A program made the position numbers and the translations under genes. Shown here in pieces: positions 5,392 to 29,721 of a stretch of DNA of 30,537 nt. Below the pieces are notes generated by a model. That model was not told the origin of the DNA. It made no database searches and was given only the letters and a program-made list of their open reading frames with translations. The stretch comes from a virus: the IMG/VR virus record IMGVR_UViG_3300005290_000045, positions 1 to 30,537 of that record. The stretch is one strand, 5' to 3'. Each line of letters starts with the position of its first letter. Positions within the stretch are counted from its first letter, which is position 1.

Positions 5392-5751
5392 TCATTCCGC
5401 TTTCGCCTTCCGGTATTGCGCCATGTACTTGCGGCTGCGCTCACGCCTAACCCGTTCCGCTGCAGCAGTTGGGTTGTATTCATGGAAGTCATGGATTTGA
5501 TAGCCACCCTTCACCTTTCGCCATAGCCTGACACCACGTGCGCACATGGCTTCAGCGACCAAACTGCACTTTGAAATGGCACCACAAGACGCCACTGCCT
5601 TCAGCGGGATGAACCCGTCAGTCAGGTGCTGGCGTGCGTAAGCGATGCCCCATAAGTGAAGGTGGATGATAGTGGATGAACCACGTGCGCCTAGACGTGC
5701 GCCAGCCTTCATTACCTTTGGGTGCGTCAGCAGACTGTCGTGGACAACCAT
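5392..5751 (-). CDS. Replication-organiser-like DNA-binding protein
   Basis: The protein has 119 residues from the ATG at 5751, preceded by AGGTG six bases upstream; a GTG at 5760 coupled by GTGA to the previous stop is the alternative. The opening MVVHDSLLTHPKVMKAG and the later HLWGIAYARQHLTDGFIP, then GGYQIHDFHEYNPT and a basic Arg-rich tail, follow the N-terminal winged-helix pattern of phage replication initiators and DnaD/O-like proteins. It is shorter than a full replication initiator, and no helicase-loader domain is present. It lies just after the recombination genes. Confidence 0.6.
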   Translation of the reverse strand: MVVHDSLLTHPKVMKAGARLGARGSSTIIHLHLWGIAYARQHLTDGFIPLKAVASCGAISKCSLVAEAMCARGVRLWRKVKGGYQIHDFHEYNPTAAAERVRRERSRKYMAQYRKAKAE

Positions 5752-5756
5752 CCATG

Positions 5757-6287
5757 TCACCTATCTGTCAGCAATGTGTCAGCAATTTGTTTTGTGCCGT
5801 CCCGAAATATCAGGGACTGCCAGACACGCAGTGGACGCCTGTGGTGCGCTGGTCTGCGTGACTCTAATCTGTCTCCAGTCAATCGGATAAGGCCATCACG
5901 GGCAGCTGACCGAAACACGCCACCCAGCGCAGACGGATTGCACCGCTGCACGGCAGCCGCACCAAGTTCCGCCCACAGATCGTCACTGGTCAACAGCGGC
6001 TGACGGCGTGCGATGACGTAGATGCCACGCACCATGTCCATCTTCCAGTCATCAGCGGCACGGTCACCGGACTGCTGGCAGCCAGCGTCTGACAGCTGCG
6101 CCGCACGTGCGGCGTCCAGCACGGGTTCATCAGCCGCAGCGTGGATGCGCAGTCCTGGTGTCCAGTGTTCCTGCCCGGTGGCAGGGTCAGCATCCATGTG
6201 CGCTTCCACGTGTCCCTGCTTCCCGTCACAGCGGTGACCGGGACCAGGACGTGCGCCACCACAGAACAGGCAGTGTGCTTCTTCCAT
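5757..6287 (-). CDS. Winged-helix protein with N-terminal zinc motif
   Basis: This 176-residue protein begins HCLFCGG and later has a Cys in HRCDGK, suggesting a small zinc-binding N-terminus. The C-terminal half (about 85-165) contains PLLTSDDLWAELG, then NPSALGGVFRSAARDGLI and ESRRPAHHRRPLRVW, a winged-helix pattern seen in phage proteins near replication genes. It follows the Sak4-like gene by one base. A role in replication or gene control is an inference from the fold and neighbours. Confidence 0.6.
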   Translation of the reverse strand: MEEAHCLFCGGARPGPGHRCDGKQGHVEAHMDADPATGQEHWTPGLRIHAAADEPVLDAARAAQLSDAGCQQSGDRAADDWKMDMVRGIYVIARRQPLLTSDDLWAELGAAAVQRCNPSALGGVFRSAARDGLIRLTGDRLESRRPAHHRRPLRVWQSLIFRDGTKQIADTLLTDR

Positions 6288-8319: not shown

Positions 8320-8353
8320 ACCGCACCACCGTTCTGAAAATCTGAAAACTGCG

Positions 8354-8420
8354 GTGAACTGTGGTGAACGTCATACGTGCCACAGTGAACGTCAGTGAAC
8401 GTGGGTGAACTTGAGTGATT
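8354..8420 (+). repeat. Tandem 10-bp GTGAAC repeat array
   Basis: Five copies of GTGAAC and one GTGATT start at 8354, 8364, 8385, 8395, 8405 and 8415, so spacings are 10, 21, 10, 10 and 10 bases. All copies therefore lie on one face of the helix. The unit is about GTGAACGTSR. Related triple arrays occur at 12997-13022, 13152-13177 and 13215-13240. The array covers the expected promoter of the leftward operon, as expected for an operator with several protein monomers or dimers side by side. Confidence 0.75.
8370..8399 (-). promoter_or_regulatory. Candidate leftward early promoter
   Basis: On the minus strand TTCACT (8399-8394) and TATGAC (8375-8370) are separated by 18 bases, each matching four of six consensus positions. 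The -35 hexamer is itself one of the array repeats, so binding to the array would cover the promoter. The predicted start would lie about 45 bases upstream of the exonuclease ATG. The match is modest and the call rests partly on position. Confidence 0.35.
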
Positions 8421-8602
8421 TTCGTAAGCGTCAGGCGGGGAAGGAAGGACGGTGCTGCAGGTGCAGCTGGTGCGGCTGTGCGCAGGTGGACCCTTCAAAC
8501 GCCGGACAAAGACAGCGCCGCAGCTGGGAGACTGCAGCGGCAGAATCGCAACGATACGGCTGCCACGGCGCACGGTCAAGCGCAATCGGCAGCGCCGCAG
8601 GG

Positions 8603-8622
8603 TAATGGACCAAGGTCCATTA
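8603..8622. promoter_or_regulatory. Palindromic operator candidate
   Basis: TAATGGACC and GGTCCATTA form perfect nine-base arms around a two-base AA centre. A second, partial copy with the same core (ATGGACCAAGGTC) occurs at 8678-8690, and a half site GGTCCAT at 8739-8745. Repetition of the core in a non-coding control region suggests a dimeric repressor site. Confidence 0.5.
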
Positions 8623-8677
8623 TCCCGTTCGATATGGATCAGGCTGGCAGGTTGGCACCCGTGTCCGTGTCCGTCTG

Positions 8678-8690
8678 ATGGACCAAGGTC
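8678..8690. promoter_or_regulatory. Second copy of the TGGACC operator core
   Basis: The core ATGGACCAAGGTC is identical to the centre of the palindrome at 8603-8622, but here the outer arms are not conserved. It lies about 75 bases downstream of the first copy and about 90 bases upstream of the rightward promoter. Confidence 0.45.
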
Positions 8691-8727
8691 GTATTGACGG
8701 CGCTGGCCGTTTTTGCTAGGAATAGCG

Positions 8728-8768
8728 AGCACAATGGGGGTCCATCCAGGAATGCCCCCCATTGTGCT
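8728..8768. promoter_or_regulatory. 13-bp perfect inverted repeat upstream of the rightward promoter
   Basis: The arms AGCACAATGGGGG (8728-8740) and CCCCCATTGTGCT (8756-8768) are perfectly complementary across a 15-base spacer. The right arm ends on the first base of the -10 hexamer, so the repeat occupies the place of a -35 element. It could be an activator or repressor site; it is not followed by a T-run, so a terminator is unlikely. Confidence 0.55.
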
Positions 8769-8773
8769 ATACT
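8765..8773 (+). promoter_or_regulatory. Rightward promoter with extended -10
   Basis: TGCTATACT is an extended -10 (TGn plus TATACT, five of six consensus bases). No good -35 hexamer stands 16-18 bases upstream, as is usual for extended -10 promoters. Transcription would begin near 8780, about 36 bases before the GTG of the first rightward gene. Confidence 0.65.
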
Positions 8774-8805
8774 GTTAACTCATTGAAACGGCAGACGGTT
8801 AACAG
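8772..8805. promoter_or_regulatory. GTTAAC inverted-repeat operator candidate
   Basis: CTGTTAAC (8772-8779) and GTTAACAG (8798-8805) are perfect inverted copies around an 18-base centre. The left arm overlaps the end of the -10 and the likely transcription start; the right arm touches the AGGAG ribosome binding site. A third copy of GTTAACAG is at 9549-9556 upstream of the integrase. This suggests a common regulator for the first rightward gene and the integrase. Confidence 0.5.
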
Positions 8806-8815
8806 GAGAACGATA

Positions 8816-9277
8816 GTGATTCACTTTGTAAACGCAGGCAGGCAGGTGGCACCGTGTGGTGCCAATCAGGGACAGAAGCTGCGAGCACGGCTGGTGCTCA
8901 CGGAAGACACGCAGAAGGTGTCATGTGGGAAGTGTCTGCAGTACCTGCGCAAGCGTGCAGCGGCTGCGCAGGCTGACGCTGATGCGCTGCGCAGCTGCAC
9001 TGGCAGTGTGGCAGTGACGCTGACTGACGGACCCATCACGGTGACCAGCACGGCGCTGACCGTGGCGCAGCGCCGTCAGCGGCTGACCGCAGCAGGCATC
9101 ATCATCCGCAAAACGGATGAAGGTGAGTACCGGGTGAACTACCGTGGCGCATCTGAACGCTATGCGGCGTATGAGTCAGACATGCTGGCAGCGGTGGAAA
9201 CTGGCGAAGCCATGAACAGGCAGCGGCCAGAAGTCATCAAGGCAGACATCAGGGTGAAGACAGGAGAACAGCGGTGA
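8816..9277 (+). CDS. Zinc-motif protein, first gene of the rightward operon
   Basis: This is a 153-residue protein from the GTG at 8816, with AGGAG seven bases upstream; the frame is open to 8762, but that part overlaps the promoter. The N-terminus has His3, Cys14, then CGKC at 37-40 followed by LQYL, a zinc site seen in small phage proteins. A middle strand-rich part is followed by LTVAQRRQRLTAAGI, which could form a helix-turn-helix-like unit, and a helical C-terminus. As the first gene behind the regulated promoter it could be a regulator, but no known repressor family is recognised. Confidence 0.7.
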   Translation: MIHFVNAGRQVAPCGANQGQKLRARLVLTEDTQKVSCGKCLQYLRKRAAAAQADADALRSCTGSVAVTLTDGPITVTSTALTVAQRRQRLTAAGIIIRKTDEGEYRVNYRGASERYAAYESDMLAAVETGEAMNRQRPEVIKADIRVKTGEQR

Positions 9278-13903: not shown

Positions 13904-13928
13904 CACGCAGCTGTCAGACGCCAGTGCC
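13896..13928. terminator. Convergent hairpin, possible bidirectional terminator
   Basis: CTGACA (13900-13905) pairs with TGTCAG (13912-13917) around a six-base loop, and the outer GGCACTG (13896-13902) can alternatively pair with CAGTGCC (13922-13928). The structure covers the stops of both converging genes. No T-run follows on either side, so termination may need Rho or may be partial. Confidence 0.45.
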
Positions 13929-14186
13929 AAGCAGCTGCTTTATCCAGCTGGATGCCTGCAGCTGCGCCGCCATGGCAGGCAGGTCACCCACAAAAAAACC
14001 TTTGATTGCGTTCACTTCATCTTGCGTCAGGCCCAGCGTGATCAGGTCAGCATCAGGCCATGACTCCAGCTGCGCCTTCATGCCCATGCCTTGTTCCACG
14101 AACTCGGTGATCATGGCCGCCACATGGCCTGCTGAATTCTTCAGGTCCGCTGCCGTGAACTGCTTCCCCGCTTGAACAATGGCCAT
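13914..14186 (-). CDS. Last late gene, small tail-region protein
   Basis: This 90-residue protein opens MAIVQAGKQFTAADLKNSAGH, with a middle ITLGLTQDEVNAIKGFFVGDLPAM and an end SWIKQLLGTGV. I have seen this pattern in short proteins at the end of siphophage tail operons, function unknown. AAGGGAAC stands upstream of the ATG. It follows the minor tail gene after a 20-base gap and ends at the convergent hairpin. Confidence 0.6.
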   Translation of the reverse strand: MAIVQAGKQFTAADLKNSAGHVAAMITEFVEQGMGMKAQLESWPDADLITLGLTQDEVNAIKGFFVGDLPAMAAQLQASSWIKQLLGTGV

Positions 14187-25324: not shown

Positions 25325-25507
25325 TCAGCGGGAAGGCGACTTTAAGGTTCTAAAGTCCAAAGCAGAGCGGACCAGCGCAGGCAGAGACTGCTTCTGCTGC
25401 AGTGCCTGCCGTGCCAGTGCGTCATACCTGCGTGACGGCAGCCGGATGGTGACGCACACGCTGCGGTCAGTGGCGTCTATGGGTGGTCTGCCGATGCGCT
25501 TCTTCAT
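25325..25507 (-). CDS. Ribbon-helix-helix protein between terminase and capsid
   Basis: This is a 60-residue protein starting at an ATG (a second ATG one codon upstream) that overlaps the terminase stop. It begins with a basic KKRIGRPPID tail, then the strand SVCVTIRLPSR, helix YDALARQALQQ and helix LPALVRSALDF, the clear RHH (Arc/CopG) pattern. A DNA-binding protein inside the head gene block is unusual; it could regulate late genes or be a genome-associated protein. It is followed by a 28-base gap before the capsid start. Confidence 0.75.
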   Translation of the reverse strand: MKKRIGRPPIDATDRSVCVTIRLPSRRYDALARQALQQKQSLPALVRSALDFRTLKSPSR

Positions 25508-27036
25508 CACGGATGGCTGCCAAAGATGAACGCCTGATATGCCTTTGGCGCTGGTGCGGTCTGCCGTTCCATCCGGTCCACGGCCATGACCAGTGCGGCC
25601 ACCGTGTCTATGCGTGCGGTACTCAGCTTCTTCGATGGCTTGATATTCCCGGCGCTGTCAGTCTCCACGGCCACGTTCCCCACGTGGTGCCGCAGCACCG
25701 GGTGACCGTCATGGTGCAGCGTGCCACCCAGCACGGCACGTTCCACGGACTTGGTGGGTGCGGATAGATTAGCGAATCCCTGACGGATAGGCACGCACGT
25801 GAAGCCGTCCTGGTCCTTCAGCCGCGTCACCAAGTCCGTAGCATTCCACGGGTCATACGCCACATCCTTCACGTCACTGTCTTCTGCCCACGTGTTCAGT
25901 TCCGCACGCACCCGTTCATAGTCCACGATGCTGCCGTCTGTGATGATCAGGTGTCCTTCATCACGCCATTGTTCATACGGCAAACGGTCACGCAGTCCAC
26001 GTTCACGCAGTCTGTCTCCAGGTAGGAAGGCAGCCACACGCACGCTGAAGCCAGTGCCGTCAGCGTCAGGATAGACAGCCACCATGGCGGTGATGTCTGT
26101 GGTGGTGGACAAGTCTAGACCCACGTAGCAGGGACCAGACCACAGACGTGGCCGCTGACGGCAGGCGTCCCACGCTTCCACGGGTATCCAGCGTGATGCC
26201 TGCTCAGTCCACTGATTCAGGTACAGCCTGCGAAAGACGTTTTCCTGTGCAGGTATCTCCTGCGCACGGGCAGCCATGGTGCGCATTTCATCAATACTGC
26301 GGAAGTCACCCAGTGCGGGATTGCAGCTGCGCCAGACCTTTTCACTGCGCCAGTCAGCATCAGCGGCAGCTTCAAAGATGACCGGCAGGAAGGATGGATC
26401 CAGTGCCGGGTTCTGCAGCACGTTCTTCGCGTGTGCGTACAGTTCCCACAGGATGCTGTGACGGTCATAGCCAGCGGTGCTGATGGCAATGACCAGCGGC
26501 TGCGCACGTGCGCCAGTGGATGACGCCAGCACGTCCCACAGTTCACGGCTGGGTGCCGCATGCAGTTCATCGTAGATGACGCGGCTGGCGTTGAAGCCGT
26601 GCTTTGAATAGGCTTCTGCGCTGATGGCTCTGTAGATACTGCCGGACTTGCGGTGGACTATGCGCTTCTGGCTGTCCAGAATTTCACACTGCGCCAGTAG
26701 TTCACTGTCATTCCTGATCATCTGCGCAGCCACATTGAAGACCAGCGCCGCTTGGTCTTTGTCCGCTGCCGCACTGTAGACTTCTGCGCCTGCTTCCTGG
26801 TCGAACAGCAGACCATCCAGCGCCAGTGCTGCGGCAATCTCTGTCTTGCCATTCTTCCTTGGCATCATCAGCAGCATGGTGCGGTACACACGCCTGCCGC
26901 TGCGGTCAGTCTTGAACAGTGGCCGGATGATCTGCTTCTCCTGCCATGGCCGCAGCTGGAAGGACTGGCCAGCGAACGGACCCTTGGTGTGGGTCAGCCT
27001 GTTGATGATGGCGACTTTGCGTTCAGCGTGTGTCAC
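25507..27036 (-). CDS. terL: Terminase large subunit
   Basis: The 509-residue protein has an ATPase domain with Walker A PRKNGKT at 59-65 and Walker B VIYDE at 153-157, followed by a nuclease domain with GLDLST (Asp308) and later acidic residues around DVKDVAYDPWN. The type matches HK97-like Terminase_1. The start is a GTG without a strong ribosome binding site. The enzyme cuts concatemeric DNA and drives packaging through the portal. The small subunit lies about 2 kb upstream, separated by the ParB-like and glycosyltransferase genes. Confidence 0.95.
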   Translation of the reverse strand: MTHAERKVAIINRLTHTKGPFAGQSFQLRPWQEKQIIRPLFKTDRSGRRVYRTMLLMMPRKNGKTEIAAALALDGLLFDQEAGAEVYSAAADKDQAALVFNVAAQMIRNDSELLAQCEILDSQKRIVHRKSGSIYRAISAEAYSKHGFNASRVIYDELHAAPSRELWDVLASSTGARAQPLVIAISTAGYDRHSILWELYAHAKNVLQNPALDPSFLPVIFEAAADADWRSEKVWRSCNPALGDFRSIDEMRTMAARAQEIPAQENVFRRLYLNQWTEQASRWIPVEAWDACRQRPRLWSGPCYVGLDLSTTTDITAMVAVYPDADGTGFSVRVAAFLPGDRLRERGLRDRLPYEQWRDEGHLIITDGSIVDYERVRAELNTWAEDSDVKDVAYDPWNATDLVTRLKDQDGFTCVPIRQGFANLSAPTKSVERAVLGGTLHHDGHPVLRHHVGNVAVETDSAGNIKPSKKLSTARIDTVAALVMAVDRMERQTAPAPKAYQAFIFGSHP

Positions 27037-27090
27037 GTGTCCACTGACACGGCAGGGAAGTCAGCCAGTGGGGAAACTGGCCTGATAAGT

Positions 27091-27975
27091 CTACTTTGTC
27101 AGCGCCGTCTTCCGCTTCAGCACCATGCCGTATTCATTGGGTCCGTTAGGCAGCTGCACGCCACGGCGCAGCACCAGCTTCTGCCGGAACTGCCGGTAGT
27201 TCACGTGATGGTGCCAGCGGCCAAAACGCCAGACCAGCCGTGCGCAGTCAGGGTGCAGCTGCACCACCATCTGCGACTTCGGCAGCGTGCCTTCCTGCAG
27301 ATAGAAGTCAGACGTATTGCCACCCATCACCACCTGCGTGCGCACCTTGTCCTGCAGGAAGGCATTGAACAGCACCGTGACCCAGCCTGCCTTCAGCATG
27401 CGCAGTGACAGGTCCGTGTCTTCGTTGTACCTGCCACGCCAGCGGTATGGCACGTCATTCCGTATCAGATTGCAGCTGTAGATCCGTGTGTTCAGCCTGA
27501 AGGGTGGGTGGGCAATCTTGCGTGGTGTCAGTGATTCGTAGTTCGGACCAGCCATGCTGACGTTGGCATACCGCAGGCAGAAGTCTTCCATGGCACGCAG
27601 CGTGGCACCATCCGTGACCCACGCTTTGACGTTCTGGTTCAGTCTGTAGAAGTGGTAGATATTGTCATCCATCACCCAGTGCCACGGCGCACCAGCGGCA
27701 GTGGCGTGGTCCCATGCAAAGTTCCGTGCGGCACCTGGTCCACGTGACTTGCTGTCTCCCAGGTCATCGCAGGTGTCATATCGCTGCTGATACTCAGACG
27801 GCAGCACCAGCAGCCGTGACTGGTCACAGTCCATGGCATACAGGTCACGTTCCTGTTCTTCCACAATCACCTGATACGGCGTGCGCATGGCATCCAGCGC
27901 ACGGATGGTGAGTCTGCGCCGGAAGTCATGCCTACCCTTGCTGACAATGTAGACAGGGAACCGTGGCTGCATCAT
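27091..27975 (-). CDS. TET-associated-type glycosyltransferase (TAGT-like)
   Basis: This encodes about 294 residues (from the ATG at 27975; alternatives are 27972 and TTG 27990). The start FPVYIVSKGR, then VIVEEQERDLY, GAARNFAWDHA, WVMDDNIYHFYR with a DD pair near 108-109 (numbered from the TTG), RIYSCNLIRND, the RGRYNEDTDLSLRML block and GGNTSDFY follow the TET-associated glycosyltransferase family as I recall it. These enzymes attach sugars to hydroxymethylated bases in phage DNA. No TET/JBP dioxygenase or DNA methyltransferase is recognisable in the window. Glycosylation of another target remains possible. Confidence 0.8.
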   Translation of the reverse strand: MMQPRFPVYIVSKGRHDFRRRLTIRALDAMRTPYQVIVEEQERDLYAMDCDQSRLLVLPSEYQQRYDTCDDLGDSKSRGPGAARNFAWDHATAAGAPWHWVMDDNIYHFYRLNQNVKAWVTDGATLRAMEDFCLRYANVSMAGPNYESLTPRKIAHPPFRLNTRIYSCNLIRNDVPYRWRGRYNEDTDLSLRMLKAGWVTVLFNAFLQDKVRTQVVMGGNTSDFYLQEGTLPKSQMVVQLHPDCARLVWRFGRWHHHVNYRQFRQKLVLRRGVQLPNGPNEYGMVLKRKTALTK

Positions 27976-27980
27976 TGGGT

Positions 27981-28175
27981 ATGTCAACAAAGACCAGACG
28001 CGGCACGCATTACCGTGACATCACTGTTGGTCTGACCGCTGCGCAATATGCCTACCTGCAGGCGGAAGCGGTGGCACGCACCACCAGCATTGCGCAGCTG
28101 GTGCGGGAAATACTGACGGAGTACCTGCCACCGCTGATGGACGCACCAGCCACGCCACGACGCCGGGTGCGTTAA
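27981..28175 (+). CDS. Antisense ribbon-helix-helix protein within the late operon
   Basis: This is a 64-residue protein on the plus strand, the only such gene in the minus-strand late block. The content (THYRDITVGLTAAQYAYLQ, then TTSIAQLVREILTEYL and a basic tail) fits the strand-helix-helix of RHH proteins. Its ATG lies five bases from the glycosyltransferase start on the other strand, and its stop TAA shares the palindrome GTTAAC (28171-28176) with the stop of the ParB-like gene. This packing means it reads divergently from the glycosyltransferase and convergently to the ParB gene. A weak ribosome binding site lowers certainty. Confidence 0.65.
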   Translation: MSTKTRRGTHYRDITVGLTAAQYAYLQAEAVARTTSIAQLVREILTEYLPPLMDAPATPRRRVR

Positions 28176-28798
28176 CTGCCAGCGTCTTCCGTGTGGTCAT
28201 AAAAGACCGGCACTGGATGGTTCAGCAGTCCGTCTGCGTCACGTGGCCACCACATACCGTGCGCCTTGTCCGGCAGCGGACCCACCAGCGCACTGAAGGC
28301 ATCAACAGCCGCTTGGTCACGGAAGTGGATGGTCAGCGTGCGGAAGCCATTGGCGTCCGGCTGGCGGAAGTCCGGCATACCGGACCAGTCACCATCAGAC
28401 GTAGTGCCCAGCAGCACTGCTTCTTCCTGCTCGGTGAAGAACGGCTGCAGCGGCAGGTCAGCGTCTGCGTCTGCACGCAGCTGGTCCACGTCCCACTCGG
28501 CCAGTTCCGCTGACCGATTGTCATAGATGGCCAGCGCACGCTTCTGTTCTGCGCTCAGATTGCTACGCCGCACGGCAATGATGGTGCTGCCGTCAGCGTC
28601 CACCACCTGCACCTTCTGCATGCCTGCGGCAGCCGCTGCTTCCACCACGCCGTTCCCTGCCAGGACTTCACCGTGTTCATCAATCACGATGGACCGGGCA
28701 GCACCCACGTCACGCAGTGCGTCCGTCAACATCTCCACATTGCGTGGCGTGCGCTTGCGCCTGTTGGCCGGATCTGGCGTCAGGTCTTCCAGGTTCAT
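28172..28798 (-). CDS. ParB-like nuclease-domain protein
   Basis: The 208-residue protein starts in an ATGA overlap, with GGAAGG upstream. The ParB/sulfiredoxin-like fold shows in VEMLTDALRDVG, IDEHGEVLAGNGVVEAAAAAG (ParB GxxxxGxxR-type loop, here with Val instead of Arg at the usual position) and LSAEQKRALAIYDNRSAELAEWD. The C-terminus (DWSGMPDF then RTLTIHF) is typical of phage-encoded ParB relatives often found with DNA methylases or modification genes. Here it sits next to the glycosyltransferase. Its activity is not known. Confidence 0.75.
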   Translation of the reverse strand: MNLEDLTPDPANRRKRTPRNVEMLTDALRDVGAARSIVIDEHGEVLAGNGVVEAAAAAGMQKVQVVDADGSTIIAVRRSNLSAEQKRALAIYDNRSAELAEWDVDQLRADADADLPLQPFFTEQEEAVLLGTTSDGDWSGMPDFRQPDANGFRTLTIHFRDQAAVDAFSALVGPLPDKAHGMWWPRDADGLLNHPVPVFYDHTEDAGS

Positions 28799-28971
28799 GG
28801 CCGTGCCTTCCGTGCGCACCAGTGCGCCAGTGCTTTGTCAATGGCGTTCCGATAGCCAAAGTCCACCAGGAAGGTGAAGCCTGCACGTTCCAGATAGTTC
28901 ATGGCCAGTGCTTCACGCCATGACACCTGCAGGTTAATCAGTGCGGCTGTCTCCTGCCACTGATACGTCAT
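28795..28971 (-). CDS. Small protein downstream of the small terminase
   Basis: This is a 58-residue protein from an ATG at 28971 in an ATGA overlap with the small terminase. It is mostly helical (TAALINLQVSWREALAM, then FGYRNAIDKALAHWC) and ends with a basic RKARP. It is coupled at both ends. Function unknown. Confidence 0.6.
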   Translation of the reverse strand: MTYQWQETAALINLQVSWREALAMNYLERAGFTFLVDFGYRNAIDKALAHWCARKARP

Positions 28972-29450
28972 AGCAGTCCTGCCCACTTGGACTTCTGCGG
29001 CGCTTCCATCTGCGGCAGCGTGGACATGCGTGACCGGCCACTTGGTGTCAGGCCGAGTTCGGTCCACAGGTGACGGCAGTGGGTCAGCGCACGGTCAGAC
29101 ACCTTCAGGTATGGATTCACGGCAGGCACACCAGTGTGCAGCTTCACCACCATGCCCAGTGTGTGAATGCGGTGCTGCGCTTCCAGATAGCGTGACCACT
29201 GCTGGCACAGCGCAATCAGTGCCCCACGTTCCACGTGGCTGATGATCCCGCAGGTGCGCAGGATAGGCACCACACGTGCCCATTCCGTGATGGCACGGCT
29301 GTCTTCTCGTAGTTCTGGTGGTGGTTCATCAAAGTCCGCAGACACTGGTGGCAGCTGCGGTTCGTCTTTGCGTGGTGCCTTCAGCTTCCCACGCAGCACC
29401 TTCATGCGTGTGGGTGCCGGACGCCTGCCGCTGTTCCAATTACCGGCCAT
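28968..29450 (-). CDS. terS: Terminase small subunit (P27 family)
   Basis: This encodes 160 residues from the ATG at 29450, which overlaps the previous stop by 11 bases; the frame is open further upstream, but the family normally starts with this motif. N-terminal RRPAPTRMKVLRGK, a Pro-rich loop, the helix AITEWARVVPILRTCG, then DxxALIALCQQWSRYLEA-like helices and the C-terminal LGLTPSGRSRM are hallmarks of the P27 small terminase. It recognises the packaging site and hands DNA to the large subunit. Confidence 0.88.
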   Translation of the reverse strand: MAGNWNSGRRPAPTRMKVLRGKLKAPRKDEPQLPPVSADFDEPPPELREDSRAITEWARVVPILRTCGIISHVERGALIALCQQWSRYLEAQHRIHTLGMVVKLHTGVPAVNPYLKVSDRALTHCRHLWTELGLTPSGRSRMSTLPQMEAPQKSKWAGLL

Positions 29451-29721
29451 AGCGTCCACCAGTCCGCACGGCCACCCTGTCCCGTGACTCTGCGCAGGTG
29501 GACCAGTGAACGGCGCTGAAGTCCACCACGCTGACAAAGGTGCCGTCAGTGCGTTCATAGACACGCTGGATCAGCACGGGCAAGGTCAGCGGCACCTTCT
29601 TCCCCTTCAGCGTGGTCACCCATTCCACGTTCTTCCGGCATGTCTCTGCACGGCAAACGCCGTATGCCGGTGGCGTGGAACGGATGACCGCAATGGCGTT
29701 GCAGTCCGTGTCTTCCTTCAT
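29440..29721 (-). CDS. Small zinc-binding protein before the small terminase
   Basis: This 93-residue protein has Cys23-x4-Cys28, then the conserved-looking VEWVTTLKGKKVPLTLP and, near the end, His72-x3-Cys76 (HWSTC). The C/C...H/C arrangement suggests a zinc site. I have seen this pattern (TxxGKxxPL followed by a HxxxC) in phage proteins. It overlaps the small terminase start by 11 bases and is coupled upstream by ATGA. Confidence 0.65.
   Translation of the reverse strand: MKEDTDCNAIAVIRSTPPAYGVCRAETCRKNVEWVTTLKGKKVPLTLPVLIQRVYERTDGTFVSVVDFSAVHWSTCAESRDRVAVRTGGRYGR

Follow-up and report, generated by a model that had tools for sequence, protein, structure and literature searches.

A short plus-strand gene with a ribbon-helix-helix (RHH)-like product lies between two minus-strand genes of the late operon, encoding a ParB-like protein and a TET-associated glycosyltransferase (TAGT), in a 30,537-base virus record (IMG/VR IMGVR_UViG_3300005290_000045; hereafter the window). 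Judged by comparison with related loci, this gene is an insertion that splits a normally overlapping pair. We consider it probable that it is an accessory, moron-like gene for a small DNA-binding protein acting in trans. With intact relatives to compare against, it is a clean before-and-after example of how an accessory gene lands between two overlapping genes, and it illustrates that a compact antisense placement need not imply local regulation. The locus is laid out as follows.

25507-27036, minus strand: terminase large subunit (TerL; Pfam and PHROG scans), downstream border of the cargo slot.
27091-27975, minus strand: TAGT gene, 294 aa from ATG 27975.
27963, plus strand: GTG, an alternative in-frame start of the RHH-like gene that would yield 70 aa.
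27976-27980: five-base spacer between the divergent start codons of the RHH-like and TAGT genes.
27981-28175, plus strand: RHH-like gene, 64 aa, from ATG 27981 to TAA 28173-28175.
28171-28176: GTTAAC holding both stop codons, ParB TAA 28172-28174 (minus strand) and RHH-like TAA 28173-28175 (plus strand).
28172-28798, minus strand: ParB-like gene, 208 aa (phrog_620, E 5e-22).
28968-29564, minus strand: terminase small subunit (Pfam and PHROG scans), upstream border of the cargo slot.

The TAGT gene is identified by Pfam (PF20691, E 3.2e-42, 145.2 bits against a cut-off of 27.5) and by PHROG (phrog_842, E 9.2e-46); the ParB-like gene has no match in the Pfam scan. Two features of this arrangement had been described in a first-pass annotation and hold as described: the RHH-like and TAGT starts are five bases apart (ATG 27981 and ATG 27975), and the RHH-like and ParB stops overlap in one GTTAAC. 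The spacing becomes 8 bases if TAGT begins at its next Met, 27972, which is conserved in L004.

Relatives of the RHH-like gene are known in the viral collection from three lineages: the window (with a 100% identical fragment, L002), L004, and L003. L002 and L177 share a sample number, and wherever they were compared with the window the identity is 100%; they are therefore not independent of it. Over 45 shared codons, the plus-frame differences at codon positions 1/2/3 number 4/3/31 between the window and L004 (pN/pS 0.18), 4/0/25 between the window and L003 (pN/pS 0.11), and 4/3/16 between L004 and L003 (pN/pS 0.22). The five remaining frames all have either a stop in one or more lineages or a pN/pS above 1.4. 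The minus frame with common third positions also has a low pN/pS, but it carries stops in every lineage, and the stop-free minus frame has a pN/pS of 1.5–2.1. Because the differences fall at its third positions and the other frames have stops or high pN/pS, the plus frame is the coding frame, and the RHH-like gene is genuine and under protein-level selection. The earlier view of ORF 27981-28175 as a plus-strand gene between two minus-strand genes thus stands on a codon-position bias seen in all three comparisons. Minus-strand coding, which that annotation had allowed for as a contrary outcome, is rejected by the same test.

The ParB–TAGT junction was measured across 87 TAGT loci, with five duplicates left out (L001, L005, L089, L175, and L176). 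An adjacent ParB match was present in 75 and absent from 12, and in five of the 75 no start was found. In 68 of the 70 measured loci, the gap is at most 3 bases, such that the genes overlap or abut, mostly at −4 to −17. Gaps of −388 (L138), −80 (L090), and −38 (L030) depend on an automatically chosen start; read directly, L138 gives −4. Direct reading also shows a 4-base stop/start overlap in L009, L129, L130, and L058, of which L009 and L129 were among the loci lacking an automatic start, and a 14-base overlap in L006. Gene overlaps of a few bases usually signal translational coupling. The junction is open only in L002, which represents the window lineage (196 bases), and in L004 (112 bases), where an RHH-like relative occupies the same place and starts 3 bases from TAGT. 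The interpretation as an insertion follows because only these RHH-bearing junctions are open. The comparison with related phages proposed in the first-pass annotation accordingly bears out its description of a compact inserted moron, absent from this junction in all the closed loci. In L004, the ParB frame continues for about 80 bases antisense to the RHH-like gene before stopping, as expected after loss of the old ParB stop. In the window, the ParB frame stops exactly at the RHH-like stop.

A third copy lies elsewhere, in L003.

5995-6180 of L003, antisense: RHH-like relative, 78–85% identical to the window copy, tail-to-tail with a minus-strand tail-module gene.

One alignment, of 65 residues, gives 78% identity with the window copy, and a separate one 81%. 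The L003 copy is 6 bases from the end of the tail-module gene (90 aa), a homologue of window 13914-14186; on its other flank, a minus-strand DUF7694 gene lies 151 bases away. Neither TAGT nor ParB adjoins the L003 copy. The syntenic tail genes of L003 and the window are 77, 66, and 53% identical, and alignment reveals no evident similarity of L003 to the other copies outside the RHH-like frame. Since so close a relative sits at a different junction, the gene is best described as having relocated, through an insertion in either lineage. As the L003 contig breaks off short of the terminase region, L003 may have another copy at a ParB–TAGT junction beyond the contig end. A profile search did not find the gene in the 17 loci compared. 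No relatives were found in phages, plasmids, or GTDB genomes, nor in 297 genomes of one phylum, a search run without a positive control. A literature search at listing level recognized no paper dealing with it.

The encoded protein is short and basic-tailed, with a putative strand-helix-helix pattern, and is probably an RHH DNA-binding protein by profile and model comparisons. It resembles the CopG/Arc-type repressors (PF01402) in size, in this pattern, and in that two of the three members match RHH_1 weakly (13.8 bits for the L003 copy and 13.1 for the L004 copy). It differs from them in that the family scores below the curated cut-off of 20.5, the window protein having no RHH_1 match in Pfam and no direct RHH profile match over cut-off. 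PHROG scans return weak regulator matches. The AF2 model of the window protein is poor, a single long helix, and matches no PDB structure; there is no PDB sequence relative either. A second RHH family, RHH2, is encoded at window 25325-25510, between TerL and the capsid gene, and its model resembles CopG/Arc/MatP-type folds: most of the PDB structures that it matches are RHH proteins (AmrZ, CopG, Arc, and MatP), with all matches at E >1. The RHH-like profile matches RHH2 with a score of 20.87 over 35 columns spanning the strand-helix-helix; 1 in 200 column shuffles scores as high. A comparison with four RHH_1 proteins from a single genome aligns only 13 columns, at a score that none of 200 shuffles reaches. 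Unlike the RHH-like gene, RHH2 is on the sense strand of the late operon, at a fixed place and in many relatives, where it is found by similarity (47 tblastn rows).

These observations suggest a history in which an ancestral ParB–TAGT pair would have been translationally coupled until the RHH-like gene, inserted in the opposite sense, uncoupled it. On the simplest account, the protein would be a small repressor that dimerizes, binds a short operator, probably controls its own, so far unseen, promoter, and acts in trans on a site in the genome of the phage or of its host. If TAGT is affected at all, whether by the loss of coupling, by a roadblock, or possibly by antisense pairing, this would be a side effect of the landing site. 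No Shine-Dalgarno sequence precedes ATG 27981, and the TAGT start is likewise without a recognizable ribosome site. Since many genes of this phage do carry one, TAGT expression may have suffered from the insertion. Orientation against the late operon would permit expression in a lysogen while the late genes are silent. A phage moron is an accessory gene that has inserted between two genes adjacent in relatives. The RHH-like gene is likewise accessory, on the opposite strand, and inserted between genes contiguous in relatives. It differs from morons in having no promoter or terminator of its own that we could find, and in a base composition like that of its home phage. Indeed, it bears no mark of recent acquisition, because its GC3 resembles that of each home phage (0.656 in the window against 0.686 for TerL; 0.918 for the L003 copy, in a locus of 66.7% GC). 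The gene therefore joins known kinds, the moron-like accessory gene and the RHH-like phage protein; it is ordinary in kind and unusually clean in anatomy.

The leading alternative is local: the protein could bind near its own start, which abuts that of TAGT, and so repress or tune TAGT and the downstream late genes. The five-base spacing in the window speaks for this, as does the position kept in L004. However, the L003 relative is next to neither TAGT nor ParB, and in a repeat search and a motif comparison the three loci have no inverted repeat near the RHH-like start and no upstream motif in common. The longest words that L003 has in common with the other two copies upstream, a candidate operator, are 7 and 8 bases, lengths also attained in 65 and 26 of 100 shuffles. 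We regard such a regulator as unlikely. Dedicated control of the glycosyltransferase/ParB pair, which the first-pass annotation had offered as the gene's possible purpose, likewise appears unlikely because of the L003 position. The promoter that the same annotation gave the gene did not materialize: no sigma-70-like site occurs in 26900-29700, where the sigma-70 type was scanned. In that interval, the two terminator-like sites on the plus strand lie at 28401 and 29285, and none at the end of the gene.

A little less probable still is a variant whereby the RHH gene would move as a bare antisense frame into tight late-operon junctions, and splitting the coupled ParB–TAGT pair would bring an otherwise constant DNA-modification module under the control of the RHH gene, through uncoupling together with antisense or roadblock effects. 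If a local effect of this kind were true, it would offer a route to separate control of DNA hypermodification. No Shine-Dalgarno sequence precedes ATG 27981, and the TAGT start is likewise without a recognizable ribosome site. Since many genes of this phage do carry one, TAGT expression may have suffered from the insertion.

Antisense control, in which the RHH-like transcript would pair with the ParB–TAGT message and lower its use, seems to us improbable. It would suit the fully antisense placement that the gene has within a minus-strand operon both in the window and in L004, and the L004 ParB frame does read into the RHH-like gene. Selection, however, acts on the protein frame, and from its tail-end position the L003 copy would have nothing to pair with beyond the end of a gene or a read-through transcript. 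Antitoxins are common among RHH proteins, and this one could be an antitoxin itself or what is left of a type II toxin-antitoxin pair; we give this little credence, as Pfam and PHROG scans of the neighbors (TAGT, ParB-like, DUF7694, and the tail-module gene) reveal no toxin family. Finally, an open frame that arose by chance in an ordinary spacer, which would fit the lack of a detected promoter or ribosome site and the silence of Pfam on the window protein, is refuted by the codon-position bias and conservation across three lineages and has almost no probability left.

The GTTAAC at the two stops had also been given weight in the first-pass annotation, and a meaning for this element is not supported: it is missing at the RHH-like stop in both L004 and L003. 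Four copies occur in the window against 1.63 expected, a count reached by 5 of 100 shuffles. A functional palindrome is rejected on these grounds, the count being near chance.

The module that received the RHH-like gene seems itself to be exchangeable. L087 is a near relative of the window (TerL, capsid, and portal 83, 82, and 86% identical) in which the interval between the terminase genes matches none of ParB, TAGT, and RHH; ParB–TAGT is therefore itself cargo. Among 80 TerL-anchored loci, 18 have a ParB match, accompanied by TAGT in 4, by a Mom relative in 3, and by neither in 11; 61 have none of ParB, TAGT, and Mom, and many of these are fragments. L089, a copy of L004, has TAGT and a ParB match too short for the cut-off used. 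In L113 (1854-2597), L121, and L125, the partner of the terminase-region ParB is a Mom-like DNA-modification gene and not TAGT (in L113, Mom PF25680, E 9.3e-49, lies beside ParB). Because the partner changes in this way, the terminase region looks like an exchangeable DNA-modification slot. Pairs of this kind, ParB–TAGT and ParB–Mom, make up the sort of module into which the RHH-like gene has gone; they are its surroundings and distinct from the gene. In PMC13216743, TAGT of T2/T6 is described as adding glucose to already glucosylated cytosine, and solitary TAGT is counted in 288 of 753 phage genomes; TAGT is also treated in PMC13390438.

The carrier phages are temperate-looking in gene content. 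An integrase-family match is over cut-off in L003, and in the window it reaches E 0.00013 and 22.2 bits, below the cut-off of 27.1. In L003, the DUF7694-type gene occurs in two copies, 66-455 and 5457-5846, flanking the integrase. Elsewhere in the window, an array of GTGAAC-type repeats at 8340-8430, some about 10–11 bases apart, lies before a minus-strand PDDEXK gene (start 8319) and is possibly a regulatory region. Region 8600-8820 contains a palindrome at about 8600-8625, part of which recurs at 8678, and a 20-base inverted repeat at 8728-8768; two GTTAAC lie 24 bases apart at 8774 and 8798. This region is a possible control region of the plus-strand operon.
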